From NCBI GenBank assembly GCA_021646405.1, contig SOER01000001.1, positions 62,001 through 126,000 of the forward strand: DNA of 64,000 nucleotides, read 5' to 3'. Positions within the stretch are counted from its first letter, which is position 1, and each line of letters begins with the position of its first letter. The position numbers were made by a program, and so were the translations under genes. This stretch comes from Candidatus Loosdrechtia aerotolerans (GTDB taxonomy: Bacteria > Planctomycetota > Brocadiia > Brocadiales > Brocadiaceae). Positions 46,995 through 53,939 of this stretch are shown here, piece by piece. Under the pieces are notes generated by a model. That model had not been told where the DNA came from. It saw only the letters and a program-made list of their open reading frames with translations, and searched no databases.

Positions 46995-47603
46995 ATGAAG
47001 ATACGATTCATCTTGTTTTCTGTAGCACTCTTTGTCATACCAACCCTTGTACTTTCTGTAGATACAAAAGAAGCTCACTCCGGCGAGATTCGGGGTACTG
47101 TCACAGCAAAAAGACCCAAATACCTCAAGAATACTATTGCTTATATCGAAAACGTTCCGGGTAAATTTGCCCCTCCGGAAGAACATGCCGTTATGGACCA
47201 AAAAAATATGACATTTATCCCTCATGTACTCCCGATACTCAAGGGGACCACAGTTGACTTTCTCAACAGCGATACCGTTCGCCATAATGTCTACTCCCCG
47301 GATGATGTAGCAGATAATATGAACCTGGGAACATGGTTTATGGGTGAAGTAAGATCATATACCTTCAACAAGCCAGGGGTTGCATCCATTCGATGCAACG
47401 TACATGTTGATATGCTCGCGTATATCCTCGTATTACAAAACCCATATTTTGGAAGGGTTGACGCTGAGGGACGTTTTTCCATCCCTGATGTACCAGCAGG
47501 AAACTATACGGTAAAGCTGTGGAATGAACGGCTCAAAACAGAGGACCAACAGGTGAGAGTCATATCCGGTCCTCCCGCCAAAGTAGAATTTATATTGAAA
47601 TAA
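46995..47603 (+). CDS. secreted cupredoxin with C-terminal carboxypeptidase-regulatory-like domain
   Basis: 202 residues with a signal peptide (to about 22). The cupredoxin part (about 28-148) shows copper-ligand candidates in DTVRHNVYSP (His), then SIRCNVHVDMLAY (Cys, His, Met), the type I copper order. A short carboxypeptidase-regulatory-like beta-sandwich follows (GRVDAEGRFSIPDVPAGNYT). It resembles MauL-like plastocyanin relatives. The start is the ATG at 46995, 7 nt after AGGAG; ATG 46989 is too close to that site. A strong terminator follows the stop. It is probably a periplasmic electron carrier or copper protein. Confidence 0.85.
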   Translation: MKIRFILFSVALFVIPTLVLSVDTKEAHSGEIRGTVTAKRPKYLKNTIAYIENVPGKFAPPEEHAVMDQKNMTFIPHVLPILKGTTVDFLNSDTVRHNVYSPDDVADNMNLGTWFMGEVRSYTFNKPGVASIRCNVHVDMLAYILVLQNPYFGRVDAEGRFSIPDVPAGNYTVKLWNERLKTEDQQVRVISGPPAKVEFILK

Positions 47604-47613
47604 TACACCACAG

Positions 47614-47649
47614 AACATGCATGCATTTCCCTACTGCATGCATGTTTTT
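47614..47649 (+). terminator. strong Rho-independent terminator after the cupredoxin gene
   Basis: AACATGCATGCA (47614-47625) pairs perfectly over 12 bp with TGCATGCATGTT (47635-47646) across a 9-nt loop, and a run of T (47645-47649) closes it. It ends the transcript from the cupredoxin gene. Confidence 0.85.
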
Positions 47650-47965
47650 ACACTCAGATAGGCTCGATATAAGATATCATACAACAATCACTTACAACAA
47701 CAAAGAATAAATGTATTTTTCTCTATACAAGCACCGGATTAGACCTCTCTCTTTAAAAAAAGCAATTCTTTTCTCCTCCCTTATTATTCGTCATAAGTAG
47801 CAACTACCAGGGCAATTAAACGTCCCCTATTTCCTTTTCAATTTAATTCCATCAGAAAAATATTTGGCAAGCACATTGCGAAAAACAAGATAGGTTCAAT
47901 GAATATATTGGCGTATTTTATAATAATATGGTCAGGTTTTATTCAAGATAAGTGAGGTAATAAAC
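47650..47965. other. non-coding gap with a possible promoter
   Basis: No gene is seen in these 316 bp. A perfect TATAAT at 47919-47924, with only a poor -35 (TTCAAT at 47895-47900), may drive the secreted-protein array that starts at 47966. Confidence 0.35.
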
Positions 47966-48373
47966 ATGGTAAAAAAATTTCATAACAGTCTTATTACTGC
48001 ATCGATTTTTAGTATAAGTATTACCATCGGGCTTGGAAGTTTCGTAATGGCACAACATTCACCGATTCATCCTCTGGAAAAACCAGGAGGAAAAGATGTG
48101 ATAAAAGATGATGGAAAACAGAGGGAAAGAGAAGAAAAGAAGAGAAAATCAGTAGAAAAATATCAAAAAGAAGGAGGTAAAGGAGTTCACAGACATGAGG
48201 AAGAAGAGGCACGAAAAGGTGAAGAGGCTCATGGAATATCCGGCAGGGGAGAGGCTGAAGGAGGTGCAGGCATAGCCGGAGGAGGAATCGTTGGAGGTAA
48301 AGAGACAGAAAAGGAGATACGAGCAGAAGAGGCTCAGAAGCAAAGGGCAAGAAAAGAATTAGAAGAGGAGTAA
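47966..48373 (+). CDS. secreted highly charged low-complexity protein
   Basis: 135 residues: a signal peptide ending near VMAQ (about residue 29) and a mature part rich in Lys, Glu and Gly (KQREREEKKRKS, GRGEAEGGAGIAGGGIVGG), ending in a charged helix. It has no recognised domain. A GAGG ribosome site precedes the ATG. It heads the array of secreted-protein genes that ends at 53237 and lies 54 bp before the first paralogue. An envelope-associated filler or binding protein is possible. Confidence 0.6.
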   Translation: MVKKFHNSLITASIFSISITIGLGSFVMAQHSPIHPLEKPGGKDVIKDDGKQREREEKKRKSVEKYQKEGGKGVHRHEEEEARKGEEAHGISGRGEAEGGAGIAGGGIVGGKETEKEIRAEEAQKQRARKELEEE

Positions 48374-48427
48374 AAAAAGCTGTTAAAATAAAAGATAGAG
48401 AGAACCAATATTTTGAGGAGTGAAAAA

Positions 48428-49912
48428 ATGCTAAAAAAATGGAACCTTGTTCTTCTCATTGCAGCGGGAGTTATTTTTAGTGCTGCTCATAATGCATTTT
48501 CCGCCCGGGAAGACCAAAGAACATACGACGAATATGAATACGATACCGAAGGCACGCCAAGAAGCCATGCTGAGGGACACAGCCCGCAAACCCACGGATT
48601 AACAGGTGCTGAAGGCAGCTATGGTAAATCAGGAAGCGGGACCGATGGGTATATAGTTGGAGGAACCCCTGAAGAGGAGGAAAGATACGGAGAAAGAGAA
48701 CCCGACATAGAGAGATTTGAAGCAGAGAGAAGATATGAACAAGAAAGGACAAGTACTTATCCAGAAGGTGCTCGTATCGGGAAAGGAAAGGTTGACGAAA
48801 AAACCGCTGAAAAGATTATCTCCGGATGGAAAGACCAGCCGAAAAAGGTTGCCCAACGGCTCATGGAAAAATACGGTCCACCTGATGCAGCAAGCCAACA
48901 TCATCTTATCTGGTATGATAATGGTCCATGGGTAGAAACAAAAGTGGTAAATGAGGAAATTCTCCATAAATTTCCCAAAAAACACTACGACGTAGTCACA
49001 CAGACGGTTAAGTATAAAGTCCCTGTCGATAAAGTCGATGAACTTATCGACTTTGACGGCGGTCTTATCATTGACAGAACAGCAGGAGAACTCTCTGCAA
49101 TGTGTCATAACGAAAGGATGAATACCCTGGCACTCAACCTTGCAGATGATATCGTCAAAGAAAATCTCAGTGTGGAAGAGGCACGAGAAAAATATGCCGA
49201 ACAGGTAGAGGCTGCTACAAAAGGGCAATCAGCACCACTTACTCAGAGACTCCAATTCGATACGAAGGTAGCAGGAACGGCTGACCCCGGTGAATCAATT
49301 ATGGGTAAGGTCACCCGGAAAGGAAGGGAAGGAGCCATACCTGAAAAACCTGACGAAACAACCGTTCAGCAGATTATTTCAGAATGGAGAGAAGCACCCC
49401 GGACTGTTGCCCAACAGATGATCGATGAGTATGGTGTTCCGGATGAAGCAACCAATGAGCGTCTTATCTGGCATAACAATGGCCCATGGAAGAGAACCGA
49501 GGTGGTAAATCAGGAAATCCCTCATGACTTCCCGGTTAAACATAAAGATATCATCATCCAGACGGTTGACTATCAGGTACCTTCACAGAAGGTTGATGAA
49601 CTTGTCCAATATAATGGAAGTATCGTTGTAAATAAAACACGGGGAGAGATCTCTTCCCATTCTGCCAATGAAAAAATGAATATCCTGACATTAAATCTCG
49701 CAGGTGACATTGTTGAAGAAGATCGTGACCCTGAAGAGGTACGAGAGGTCTATACCGATCAGGCAAGGGAGATCCTGGAAGAAGACCGTACTCCCTCCCT
49801 TGCGAAGAAATTACAAATCAAAGGTGGGAAACGGGAAAAAGAAGAATACCGTGATGAGGAATATGAAAAAGAGGAAGAGGATGAGGGATTCCTTGAGAGA
49901 GTTTTTAACTAG
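48428..49912 (+). CDS. secreted two-domain protein, paralogue 1 of the tandem array
   Basis: 494 residues from the ATG at 48428, 7 nt after GAGGAG. A signal peptide (to about 25) leads into a 90-residue acidic, Gly-rich linker. Two copies of a domain of about 150 residues follow (about 120-275 and 307-460). Each has IISxW near the start, then KYGPPDAASQHHLIWYDNGPW-like text (shared core LIWxxNGPW), and KVDEL. Between and after are helices ending NxLxLNLAxDIV. The tail is a run of Glu, Lys and Asp. I recall similar uncharacterised domains in other bacteria. The function is unknown. Domain 1 is nearly identical in DNA to that of the next paralogue. Confidence 0.82.
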   Translation: MLKKWNLVLLIAAGVIFSAAHNAFSAREDQRTYDEYEYDTEGTPRSHAEGHSPQTHGLTGAEGSYGKSGSGTDGYIVGGTPEEEERYGEREPDIERFEAERRYEQERTSTYPEGARIGKGKVDEKTAEKIISGWKDQPKKVAQRLMEKYGPPDAASQHHLIWYDNGPWVETKVVNEEILHKFPKKHYDVVTQTVKYKVPVDKVDELIDFDGGLIIDRTAGELSAMCHNERMNTLALNLADDIVKENLSVEEAREKYAEQVEAATKGQSAPLTQRLQFDTKVAGTADPGESIMGKVTRKGREGAIPEKPDETTVQQIISEWREAPRTVAQQMIDEYGVPDEATNERLIWHNNGPWKRTEVVNQEIPHDFPVKHKDIIIQTVDYQVPSQKVDELVQYNGSIVVNKTRGEISSHSANEKMNILTLNLAGDIVEEDRDPEEVREVYTDQAREILEEDRTPSLAKKLQIKGGKREKEEYRDEEYEKEEEDEGFLERVFN

Positions 49913-49984
49913 GTATAAGTATTCACAAGATGACATTGAACGTCGTTAGTCCCTGTGTATATAAAAACTTTAACATGAAAAGGT

Positions 49985-50014
49985 CGGCGTGAACAAACTG
50001 GTTTGTTCACGCCG
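49985..50014. repeat. 14-bp hairpin in the spacer between paralogues 1 and 2
   Basis: CGGCGTGAACAAAC (49985-49998), two bases, then its exact reverse complement (50001-50014). No T-run follows. The equivalent spacer between paralogues 2 and 3 has a longer hairpin that begins with the same CGGC-TG frame. Confidence 0.7.
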
Positions 50015-50125
50015 GTATCGGGTGGAACCAAATCTGATTTATTTTGTTTGGTTTCATTCTTGGGTTACCACAAGCACCTGGTTTTATTGAAGTATAGGTA
50101 CCGAGCTTTGTATAAGGAGTGAAAA

Positions 50126-51436
50126 ATGATAAAAAAACAGTGTTTTAATCTCGTTATCTGCAGCACGCTTATTTTCGGTGTTGTTATTGCAAATGCGGCT
50201 TTCATGAGCCCCGCTACGGCGGCCGGTGAAAAATCCAGGGAAAATACCCGTGGTGAGGGTATTTTTTCTGGAACAGGTGGTAAAGTTGACAAAAAAACTG
50301 TTGAAAAGATTATCTCCGGCTGGAAAGGCCAACCGAAAAAGGTTGCCCAACAGCTCATGGAAAAATACGGTCCACCTGATGCAGCAAGCCAACGTCATCT
50401 TATCTGGTATGATAATGGTCCATGGGTAGAAACAAAAGTGGTAAATGAGGAAATTCTCCATAAATTTCCCAAAAAACACTACGACGTAGTCACACAGGCG
50501 GTTAAGTATGAAGTCCCTGTCGATAAAGTCGATGAACTTATCGACTTTGACGGCGGTCTTATCATTGACAGAACAACAGGAGAACTCTCTGTAATGTGTC
50601 ATAATGAAAGGATGAATACCCTGGCACTCAACCTTGCAGATGATATCGTCAAAGAAAATCTCAGTGTGGAAGAGGCACGAGAAAAATATGCCGAACAGGT
50701 AGAGGCTGCTACAAAAGGGCAATCAGCACCACTTACTCAGAGACTCCAATTCGATACGAAGGTAGCAGGAACGGCTGACCCCGGTGAATCAATTATGGGT
50801 AAGGTCACCCAAAAAGAAAAGGAAGAAGAGAGAAGAACAAAAATAACAGAAGGAGCCATACCTGAAAAACTTGACGAAACAACCGTTCAGCAGATTATTT
50901 CAGAATGGAGAGAAGCACCCCGGACTGTTGCCCAACAGATGATCGATGAGTATGGTGTTCCGGATGAAGCAACCAATGAGCGTCTTATCTGGCATAACAA
51001 TGGCCCATGGAAGAGAACCGAGATTATCAATCATGAGATCACGCATAATTTCCCCATTGAACATAAAGATGTCGTCATCCAGACGGTTGACTATCAGGTA
51101 CCTTCACAGAAGGTTGATGAACTTGCCCAATATAACGGAAGCATTATTGTAAATAAAACACGGGGAGAGATCTCTTCCCATTCTGCCAATGAAAAAATGA
51201 ATATCCTGACATTAAATCTTGCAGGTGACATTATTGAAGGAGATCGTGATCTCGAGGAGGTACGAGAGGTCTATGCCGATCAGGCAAGGGATATCCTGGA
51301 AGAAGACCGTACTCCCTCCCTTGCAAAGAAATTACAAATGAAAGGAGCAGGATGGGGAAAAGAAGAATATCGTGATGAGGAATATGAAGAAGAAGAAGAA
51401 GAAGAAGAAGGACTCTTTGAGAGGATTTTTGAATAG
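50126..51436 (+). CDS. secreted two-domain protein, paralogue 2 of the tandem array
   Basis: 436 residues with AAGGAG at 50114-50119 before the ATG. The signal peptide (VICSTLIFGVVIANAAFMSPATAAG) joins domain 1 (about 52-210) after a short linker, then domain 2 (about 249-401) and an acidic tail with seven consecutive Glu. Bases 50300-50810 differ from 48807-49315 at only a few percent of sites, while the leader and linker are unrelated to paralogue 1, which points to recent duplication or gene conversion of the domain. The function is unknown. Confidence 0.82.
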   Translation: MIKKQCFNLVICSTLIFGVVIANAAFMSPATAAGEKSRENTRGEGIFSGTGGKVDKKTVEKIISGWKGQPKKVAQQLMEKYGPPDAASQRHLIWYDNGPWVETKVVNEEILHKFPKKHYDVVTQAVKYEVPVDKVDELIDFDGGLIIDRTTGELSVMCHNERMNTLALNLADDIVKENLSVEEAREKYAEQVEAATKGQSAPLTQRLQFDTKVAGTADPGESIMGKVTQKEKEEERRTKITEGAIPEKLDETTVQQIISEWREAPRTVAQQMIDEYGVPDEATNERLIWHNNGPWKRTEIINHEITHNFPIEHKDVVIQTVDYQVPSQKVDELAQYNGSIIVNKTRGEISSHSANEKMNILTLNLAGDIIEGDRDLEEVREVYADQARDILEEDRTPSLAKKLQMKGAGWGKEEYRDEEYEEEEEEEEGLFERIFE

Positions 51437-51517
51437 GTATATAGTATACAAAGGATGAAATTGAACATCTTAGTCTCTGTATACATACGATAAAGACTTA
51501 AACATCAAAAGAACGGA

Positions 51518-51635
51518 CGGCATGGGGCTGTTCAAAAAGTTCCAAATACCGGTTTTGGCATACAACATGGAGAGCGAAATAGCATTTCGCTCTCCATGTT
51601 ATGTGTAGAAAAACTTCTTGAACAACCCCATGCCG
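51518..51635. repeat. 118-bp nested palindromic element (MITE-like or structured RNA)
   Basis: An outer inverted repeat of 24 bp (51518-51541 with 51612-51635, two mismatches) encloses a perfect 17-bp inner stem (51564-51580 with 51584-51600, loop AGC). The outer arms start CGGCATGGGG. Both outer mismatches are C-A or A-C on the plus strand and become G-U pairs on the minus-strand RNA. It lies between paralogues 2 and 3. Confidence 0.75.
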
Positions 51636-51748
51636 GTGTCTAACGTAATCAAATCTGATTTATTTTGTCCGGTTTCATTTTTGGATTACTATAAGAAGCA
51701 CCTGGTTTTATTGAAATATAGGTACCGAAGGGTGGAAAGGAGGGAGAA

Positions 51749-52639
51749 ATGATAAGAATACGGCGATTTAGTCTCGCTATTGGCAGCACATTTATTTTCG
51801 GTGTTGTTATTGCAAATGCTGTTTTCATGAGTTCTGCTACGGCAGCCGGTAAAAAATCCGAGGGAAATACCGGTGGTGAGGGTATTTTTTCTGGAACAGG
51901 TGGTAAAGTTGACAAAAAAACTGTTGAAAAGATTATTTCCGGCTGGAAAGATCAACCGAAAAAGGTTGCCCGGCAACTCATAGAAAAATACGGCCCGCCT
52001 GATGCAGCAGGTCAACGTCACCTTATCTGGTATGATAATGGTCCATGGGTAGAAACAAAAGTGGTAAATCAGGAAATTTTCCATTATTTCCCAAAAAAAC
52101 ACAGAGACGTAGTCACACAGACGGTTAAATATGAAGTCCCTGCTGATAAAGTTGATGAACTCATCGAATTTGACGAAAGCCTTATCATCGACAGAACAAA
52201 AGGAGAACTCTCTGTAATGTGCCATAATGAAAGGATGAATACCCTGGCACTCAACCTTGCAGATGATATCGTGAAAGGGAAGCGCAGTGTGCAGGAGGCA
52301 CGAAAGACATTTGCCGAACAGGTACAGGCTGCCGTGAAAGGACAACCGGCGCCGCTCACCCAGGAACTCCGGTTTGATACGAAGGTAGCAGGAACAGCCG
52401 CCCCCGGCGAACCAATTATGGGTAAGGAGGTTACTCAGAAAGAAGAGGAAGAGGAGAAAAGAATCAAAATGGAAGGAAGGGAAGGAGCCATACTTGAAAA
52501 ACCTGACAAATCAACCGTAAAGAAATTACAAACCAAAAATAGAGATACAGACCAAAGAACAGAATATCGTGATACAGAATATCAACAAAAAGAAGAGAAA
52601 AAAGAAAAAGGATTCTTCGAGAGGACTTTTGACTTTTAA
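51749..52639 (+). CDS. secreted one-domain protein, paralogue 3 of the tandem array (domain 2 deleted)
   Basis: 296 residues: a signal peptide like that of paralogue 2 (SLAIGSTFIFGVVIANAVF), domain 1 (about 52-205), linker, and tail. The linker reads EKPDKSTVKKLQTKN: in paralogue 2 the same flanks, DETTV and KKLQ, stand about 146 residues apart, holding domain 2. So domain 2 has been removed cleanly in frame at about 52518, and the acidic tail is kept. AGGAGG precedes the ATG. The intact frame suggests a working protein. Confidence 0.82.
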   Translation: MIRIRRFSLAIGSTFIFGVVIANAVFMSSATAAGKKSEGNTGGEGIFSGTGGKVDKKTVEKIISGWKDQPKKVARQLIEKYGPPDAAGQRHLIWYDNGPWVETKVVNQEIFHYFPKKHRDVVTQTVKYEVPADKVDELIEFDESLIIDRTKGELSVMCHNERMNTLALNLADDIVKGKRSVQEARKTFAEQVQAAVKGQPAPLTQELRFDTKVAGTAAPGEPIMGKEVTQKEEEEEKRIKMEGREGAILEKPDKSTVKKLQTKNRDTDQRTEYRDTEYQQKEEKKEKGFFERTFDF

Positions 52640-52694: not shown

Positions 52695-53237
52695 ATGGTA
52701 GGAAAACGTAGTTTGAATCTCATTATTGGCAGCACCTTAATTCTTGGCACTGTTATTGCAAACACAACGTATGTTGGCTCTGCCATAGCAACAACCCCTG
52801 AAGAAGAATTAAGTGGTACACAATCAAGAACAGACCGGAGATCAACAGGGATAGAAAGTAAAACAGGTGGTCAAATGGGGACAACAAGAGAAAGACCATC
52901 TGGAAGTGATAGAGGAACTACCGGCGAAAGGAGAACCGGAAGGCGAGGCGGTGGTATAGAAACCGGTCCTGGTGCCGATGTACCCGGAATACAAGGGCCA
53001 ACCCCGGGTACCCCGGGAAGACCATCCCCTGAGGCACCCAGAGGAACAACTGACAGAAAAAGAAGTGAAAGAGAAGGGAGAGGAACTATTGGTGGTGAAA
53101 CGGAAACTACCAGAGGACCAACGGATAGTGCAACTGGCGGTGCACGAAGCGGATCACCAGGAGGTACAACTGCACCACAAACACCCGGAGCAGGTGGCGG
53201 TACAACGGATAGTAGCGGTGGCACAGGTGGAAGATAA
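52695..53237 (+). CDS. secreted Gly/Thr/Arg-rich protein with the array's leader peptide
   Basis: 180 residues. The first 32 (RSLNLIIGSTLILGTVIAN) match the leader of paralogues 2 and 3, but the mature part is unrelated: a disordered chain rich in Gly, Thr, Pro, Arg and Ser (GTTGERRTGRRGGGIETGPG, GTTDSSGGTGGR). There are no Cys. GAGGAG precedes the ATG and the gene is 55 bp after paralogue 3. It may be a surface or matrix polymer; the function is unknown. Confidence 0.7.
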   Translation: MVGKRSLNLIIGSTLILGTVIANTTYVGSAIATTPEEELSGTQSRTDRRSTGIESKTGGQMGTTRERPSGSDRGTTGERRTGRRGGGIETGPGADVPGIQGPTPGTPGRPSPEAPRGTTDRKRSEREGRGTIGGETETTRGPTDSATGGARSGSPGGTTAPQTPGAGGGTTDSSGGTGGR

Positions 53238-53600: not shown

Positions 53601-53939
53601 ATGTACCCTGCACTTATACAAGGAATATACTATATCATCACCGGTATCTGGCCCCTCATGAGCATGAGAACATTTCAAATGGTAACAGGTCCTAAAACCA
53701 ACCACTGGCTCGTTAATACTGTTGGGGTTCTCATAATTGTTATTGGCGGAGTATTGATCATTACAGGAATCCGGCGCACTGTATATCCCGATATCGAAAT
53801 TATCCTGCTTGCTCTTGGGAGCGCTATTGGATTAGCAGCAATTGATATCGTATATGTTGTAAAAAAGCAAATTAGCCCTATATATCTTCTCGACATGTGT
53901 ATTGAGGTTGTGTTCATTATAAATTGGATTTTTGTTTAG
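53601..53939 (+). CDS. small four-helix membrane protein of unknown function
   Basis: 112 residues with about four hydrophobic helices: LIQGIYYIITGIWPL, VNTVGVLIIVIGGVLIITG, IILLALGSAIGLAAIDIVYVV and a last one ending INWIFV. Between them is GPKTNHWLVNT. It resembles small uncharacterised membrane proteins of many bacteria. No strong ribosome site is seen (the ATG follows CATAAATTTCACC). It stands alone between two hairpin-rich gaps. Confidence 0.6.
   Translation: MYPALIQGIYYIITGIWPLMSMRTFQMVTGPKTNHWLVNTVGVLIIVIGGVLIITGIRRTVYPDIEIILLALGSAIGLAAIDIVYVVKKQISPIYLLDMCIEVVFIINWIFV

Follow-up and report, generated by a model that had tools for sequence, protein, structure and literature searches.

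Probable origin of a three-gene array by leader capture, loss of a domain and gene conversion in a planctomycete related to anammox bacteria

How did three adjacent genes come to share stretches of almost identical DNA while their remaining parts kept older differences? The question is raised by an array in the 64,000-nt stretch of Candidatus Loosdrechtia aerotolerans DNA that we analysed (the window), which belongs to a draft genome of 3.26 Mb in 61 contigs; its genes and its related genomes have the look of anammox Brocadiaceae. A preliminary description had noted three neighbouring genes carrying one or two copies of a domain of about 150 residues, and had read their patchy near-identity as recombination that diversifies surface components. 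The three paralogues follow each other on the + strand in the order p1, p2, p3, and lie in a cluster of genes conserved in two related genomes (G005 and G012):

47966-48373, + strand: p0, a small Gly/Lys/Glu-rich protein, predicted to be exported; the first gene of the conserved cluster
48428-49912, + strand: p1, 494 aa, with a first and a second domain copy (D1 and D2), predicted to be exported
50126-51436, + strand: p2, 436 aa, with a p4-type leader (residues 1-52) followed by p1-type D1 and D2
51749-52639, + strand: p3, 296 aa, with a p2-type leader, D1 and a tail, lacking D2
52695-53237, + strand: p4, a Gly/Thr-rich low-complexity protein, predicted to be exported, whose N-terminal leader is homologous to the p2/p3 leader
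53601-53939, + strand: a hydrophobic protein, probably multi-pass membrane; the conserved end of the cluster in G005/G012, with 65-66% identity

p1 could also start from an in-frame TTG at 48413. A repeat search with a 300-nt reference found a single domain of about 150 residues five times, as D1 and D2 in p1 and p2 and as D1 in p3, and this 2+2+1 arrangement agrees with the gene and domain counts given before. When the locus was compared with itself by BLAST, E was 0.0 both for p1/p2 and for p2/p3, and chance likeness among the paralogues is excluded. The p2 body is 87% identical to p1 in amino acids. The N-termini of the array proteins looked like signal peptides when judged by eye, suggesting that the products of p1-p3 are exported.

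Copy number was compared across 59 genomes, this one included. Outside this genome the gene was found only in G005 and G012, which belong to genus g5 of the same family, as one two-domain copy each; the fourth match among the 59 genomes, in G020, was to the leader alone. Neither the same-genus genome G001 nor the third g5 genome, G017, yielded the gene, so that the comparison gives three copies here, one in G005 and in G012, and none found in G001 and G017. Synteny was clearest in G005, which has in common with this genome the order metK, RMND1-like, plastocyanin-like, p0, array, p4, membrane protein and DUF326 protein. A p0 relative stands in the syntenic place in G005 (L044, 60% identity) and in G012 (54%). 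The single gene of G005 carries a p1-type leader; the p1 leader matched it with z 17.5 and p4 with z 1.2, suggesting that p1 is the syntenic descendant of a single ancestral gene. The orthologue in G005 and G012 thus resembles p1 in its cluster, leader type, two domains and neighbours, but it is a single copy with a likeness of 75-78% between its D1 and D2, which form one group (support 92/84), whereas the array here comprises three genes in which D1 and D2 are 47% alike. The likeness of D1 and D2 in g5 is suggestive of homogenisation in that genus as well, or of a duplication of its own.

The leaders tell a different story for the other two genes. Compared with p4, the leader scored z 18.1 for p2 and z 13.1 for p3, as against z 0.5 for the p2 leader and the G005 gene. 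This likeness to p4 runs up to a motif GI.S.TGG just before D1, and 73 nt of the leader DNA are 74-84% identical among p2, p3 and p4. Because the p2 and p3 leaders match the gene downstream of the array, p2 and p3 are chimeras, composed of a p4 leader and a p1 body. The p2 and p3 leaders are 78-96% identical in nucleotides, upstream DNA included. The earlier view that the leaders are unrelated or diverged therefore holds for p1, whose leader alone is unrelated to the others, but not for p2 and p3. The p1 leader in turn resembled p0 weakly (z 4.8 here and 7.6 for the pair in G005), though in stretches of low complexity. The common upstream DNA is as follows:

50008-50125, + strand: upstream region of p2, common to the p3 upstream region and apparently duplicated with the gene; it holds a dispersed motif like a terminal inverted repeat
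51629-51748, + strand: upstream region of p3, 79-97% identical in parts to the p2 upstream region

In p3, positions 52473-52518 correspond to the start of D2 (93%) and positions 52519-52632 to the p2 tail (75%). This direct switch from the D2 start to the p2 tail at 52518/52519 shows that D2 was deleted from p3. The leader match in G020 lies in a gene for a Cys/His-rich peptide of 60 aa (L034 1501-1683), predicted to be exported; from this peptide, the p2/p3/p4 leader type may be a signal-peptide module shared across genomes of the family.

Base identity between p1 and p2 was 97-100% in a stretch covering most of D1, the linker after it and the initial third of D2, which upholds the near-identity seen before but extends it to about 700 bp from the previously estimated 500 bp or so. 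In 90-nt windows, identity was 93-100% from p2 50309 to 50789 and 99-100% over p2 50846-51020, dropped to about 83% in the windows that begin at p2 50990-51020 (a low zone around p2 51000-51110), returned to 88-96% (about 92%) after this dip in D2, and fell to 83% in the tail; in the leaders it was 36-64%. The divergence is therefore patchy rather than uniform, as the preliminary description had it. Synonymous divergence follows the same pattern, with dS between p1 and p2 of 0.07 in D1, 0.04 after D1 and 0.0 in the first 170 nt of D2, and then 0.57 in the middle of D2, 0.16 in the rest of D2 and 0.61 in the tail. It is uneven between the two halves of the gene pair (Fisher p = 2e-5), and the values inside the presumed tract (0-0.07) against those outside (0.16-0.61) are as expected for conversion. 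The longest identical run between p1 and p2 is 205 nt (permutation p 0.0009 on the core; 0/20000 on all columns).

48820-49500, + strand: putative conversion tract in p1; left edge from the breakpoint test, right edge from the identity drop
50314-51021, + strand: counterpart of the tract in p2, from the identity windows and the breakpoint test
49502-49520, + strand: patch in D2 of p1 that differs from p2 D2 at 7 sites, with the D1 letter at all 7 of them

The left breakpoint lies at p1 48820 / p2 50314, and 0/5000 shuffles were as extreme (permutation p<1/5000). To the left of it, 69 sites have p2=p3 and 8 have p1=p2; to the right, 11 have p2=p3 and 70 have p1=p2. The right edge near p2 51020 is placed by identity and dS, because p3 has no D2 with which to vote. 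The groupings thus conflict across a sharp breakpoint, the leader sites joining p2 with p3 and the domain sites joining p1 with p2. Since p2 and p3 share a derived leader, D1 of p2 would be expected, had no exchange occurred, to be closer to p3 than to p1. The reverse was observed: the D1 tree placed p1 and p2 together against p3 (support 99/96), and dS in D1 was 0.07 for p1-p2 and 0.35 for p2-p3, with a range of 0.35-0.45 against p3. This reversed grouping, together with the low p1-p2 dS, points to gene conversion between p1 and p2 after p3 had split off. The breakpoint test, the conflict between leader and domain, and the patchy dS indicate that the paralogues have recombined, in line with the preliminary description; that the mechanism was conversion is what we infer from the alignments. 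The array having been found in this genome alone, the further point of the preliminary description that exchange is ongoing finds no support here. The short D1-like patch in D2 of p1 (17-20 bp) is suggestive of a smaller micro-conversion from D1 to D2.

The copy numbers, chimeric leaders, loss of D2, breakpoint and patchy dS, all shown by the sequences compared, are in our judgement probably explained by duplication, leader capture and D2 loss followed by p1/p2 conversion. In the order that we reconstruct, the ancestral state would have been one predicted-exported two-domain gene, p1, which is still single in two genomes of the family. This gene would have been duplicated, probably together with its neighbour p4, and p2 would then have arisen by a deletion that fused the p4 leader to the copied p1 body. 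Duplication of p2 with its upstream region would have produced p3, from which D2 was subsequently lost. Later gene conversion between p1 and p2, reaching from D1 through the linker into the first third of D2, would have left the converted parts almost identical, while the leaders, the centre of D2 and the tails retained older differences. The products would be compact domains on disordered acidic linkers with signal-peptide-like N-termini; the extra copies may raise the dose, and the changed leader may allow separate expression or export.

A history of recent unequal crossing-over or re-duplication, in which a fresh p1 body was placed behind the p2 leader without any conversion, would also produce tandem genes with long near-identity and a copy number that varies among genomes. 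Indeed, had the p1 body been duplicated into p2 a second time, the outcome would look similar, and the three-copy array is present in only one genome of the 59 searched; both points count against our preferred history. However, a simple crossover leaves one breakpoint, whereas here the near-identity stops again within D2 (about 83% at p2 51000-51110) and the tail dS is 0.6, so that two edges are needed; we regard this alternative as rather unlikely. Still less probable is that repeats were collapsed or misjoined in the assembly. The draft does consist of 61 contigs, exact p1/p2 runs reach 205 nt and repeats stand at several contig ends, but all frames are open, D1 of p2 and of p3 are about 12% apart, the leaders and spacers differ, and the genes on either side stand in the order of G005.

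Diversification of surface components, the purpose suggested in the preliminary description, fared worst. Signal-peptide-like N-termini, tandem copies and recombination would all suit a surface antigen-like array kept for this purpose. But conversion makes the copies alike, and dN/dS between the paralogues in D1 is 0.26-0.37, which argues for purifying and not diversifying selection. The relatives, moreover, are conserved and mostly single-domain proteins in many phyla, and conservation is highest in columns of the domain itself (W, NGPW, HxFP, Q). We consider this reading hardly credible. With p1/p2 conversion as the preferred reading, the array resembles known cases of concerted evolution of tandem paralogues in its near-identical stretches with diverged bounds, its grouping conflict and its patchy dS; it differs in being small (three genes and a tract of about 700 bp) and in the capture of a neighbour's leader. 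Its history is ordinary gene-family evolution, an event of known kind, and its value is that of a small example, clear and open to checking, of how a tandem array can take over a leader, lose a domain and undergo conversion, with the one-gene state kept in related genomes.

A more useful by-product than the evolution of the array is the domain itself. Searches of p1-p3 against Pfam and NCBIfam gave no match above the curated cut-offs, DUF4142 (PF13628) included, and a sequence search of the PDB with the domain gave no meaningful match. The titles and abstracts that were searched held nothing on the domain family. The model of p2 D1 (window 50249-50818) was predicted with a mean pLDDT of 91 and shows the order HH-EEE-H-EE-HH. 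The p2 model has D1 and D2 as separately folded units, with a disordered linker and a disordered acidic tail (below pLDDT 50); the relative placement of the two domains is unsure (pTM 0.46). Foldseek with the D1 model found nothing in the PDB at E below 0.001, the best hit having E 0.19 and a TM-score of 0.14. The same threshold was passed by 11 proteins of the viral library, the best at E 1.2e-12, and every one of them comes from a giant or large DNA virus. These are uncharacterised proteins of Pithovirus LCPAC, Mimivirus LCMiAC, Iridovirus LCIVAC01 and ChoanoV1 (E 1e-12 to 1e-5). The predicted fold of Pithovirus LCPAC104 A0A481Z454 resembles D1 with E 1.2e-12, a TM-score of 0.67 and 23% identity. 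Unlike the array proteins, these proteins are viral, and the likeness is between predicted models only.

Relatives with 24-48% identity occur in Acidobacteria, Gemmatimonadetes, Armatimonadota, Thermomicrobiales, Bacillota, Proteobacteria, Bacteroidota and Bdellovibrionota, and the domain is also found on staphylococcal, rhizobial, Deinococcus and Methylobacterium plasmids. It is present in 24/261 genomes (about 9%) of one Bacillota order and in 4/392 genomes of this phylum. Some of the mostly single-domain relatives are without an evident signal peptide. W53, G57, P58, W59 and Q83 are invariant in the alignment. The anammox domains form one clade (100/98) nested among acidobacterial and proteobacterial domains, which would fit one ancient transfer. 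Phage records contained no match to the domain, and the single match among viral contigs was on L194, which is short and has lysis-type genes; the domain gene there is probably part of the bacterial DNA next to a prophage. The domain is thus widespread, carried on clinical staphylococcal plasmids and well predicted, yet it has neither a family entry nor a solved structure, and its role is a question worth following.

The neighbours of the relatives offer some clues to this role. Among 76 neighbours, counted without a background set, were Ferritin_2 (four), catalase (two) and disulphide-reductase flavoproteins (three); among 94 neighbours, likewise without a background set, were OsmC (two), UvdE, TPP enzyme (four) and CBS (three). 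A TPP-dependent enzyme and a CBS-domain protein flank the domain gene on a Rhizobium plasmid and on Bacillota chromosomes (L078 3002-6767; L172 4480-7398; L173). In four genomes (L142-L145) DUF4142 is fused C-terminally to the domain, a part that the array proteins do not have. From this family context, the likeliest role of the array products would be extracytoplasmic protection from oxidative, metal or drying stress, but we hold this tentatively; it is a guess by association, because the neighbours were counted with no background set and unrelated genes were as common among them as stress genes. Equally tentative is the broader picture of an undescribed family with a fold new to the PDB, common to many phyla, staphylococcal resistance plasmids and giant viruses, which would serve in oxidative, metal or drying-stress protection and which anammox relatives would have multiplied into multi-domain exported proteins.

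A narrower role, as an accessory protein of metal (mercury) resistance, comes to mind from the copies on many staphylococcal plasmids (L074, L075, L076, L082), which are unannotated or hypothetical and lie beside merB, convergent with it; MerA-like flavoproteins also stand near three other copies. WP_000377078.1, from staphylococcal mercury-resistance plasmids, has the same domain and is about 40% identical over 170 residues; unlike the array proteins, it is a single domain with no evident leader, adjoining merB and IS257. However, there is no mer gene near the copies in Virgibacillus, Lysinibacillus, Rhizobium or this window, and the staphylococcal copies adjoin IS257 or a recombinase, so that they may have hitch-hiked. 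As the link to merB is mostly on mobile elements, we rate membership of the mer operon low and the mercury role as quite improbable.

Repeats and mobile-element-like DNA were also observed in and around the array. A dispersed motif, TGTCCGGTTTCATNNNNNGANTACTATA, occurs at window positions 50026-50060 and 51647-51695 and at many other places in this genome, often as inverted pairs 60-100 bp apart, and copies stand both between genes that converge and at the ends of several contigs. In most cases the similarity among the copies breaks off abruptly at CTATA. A promoter or regulon site was ruled out by this edge, the inverted pairs and the locations at contig ends and between convergent genes; the motif rather resembles an IS or MITE terminal inverted repeat. 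A gene neighbouring the motif, tested to name the parent IS, encodes a ClC channel and named none. A further element lies between p2 and p3:

51518-51635, + strand: imperfect palindrome of 118 bp, terminator- or MITE-like

Weak, partial copies of this palindrome are present on contig C44, and a similar-looking one stands behind the gene for a small secreted protein in G020 (L034). Inserted DNA was also seen in two related genomes. In G017, a tyrosine recombinase and other mobile-element genes lie directly behind the plastocyanin-like gene, and in G012 about 11 kb is inserted behind the same gene. The corresponding site beside the array (window 47603-47966; L190 and L193) is possibly an integration hotspot.
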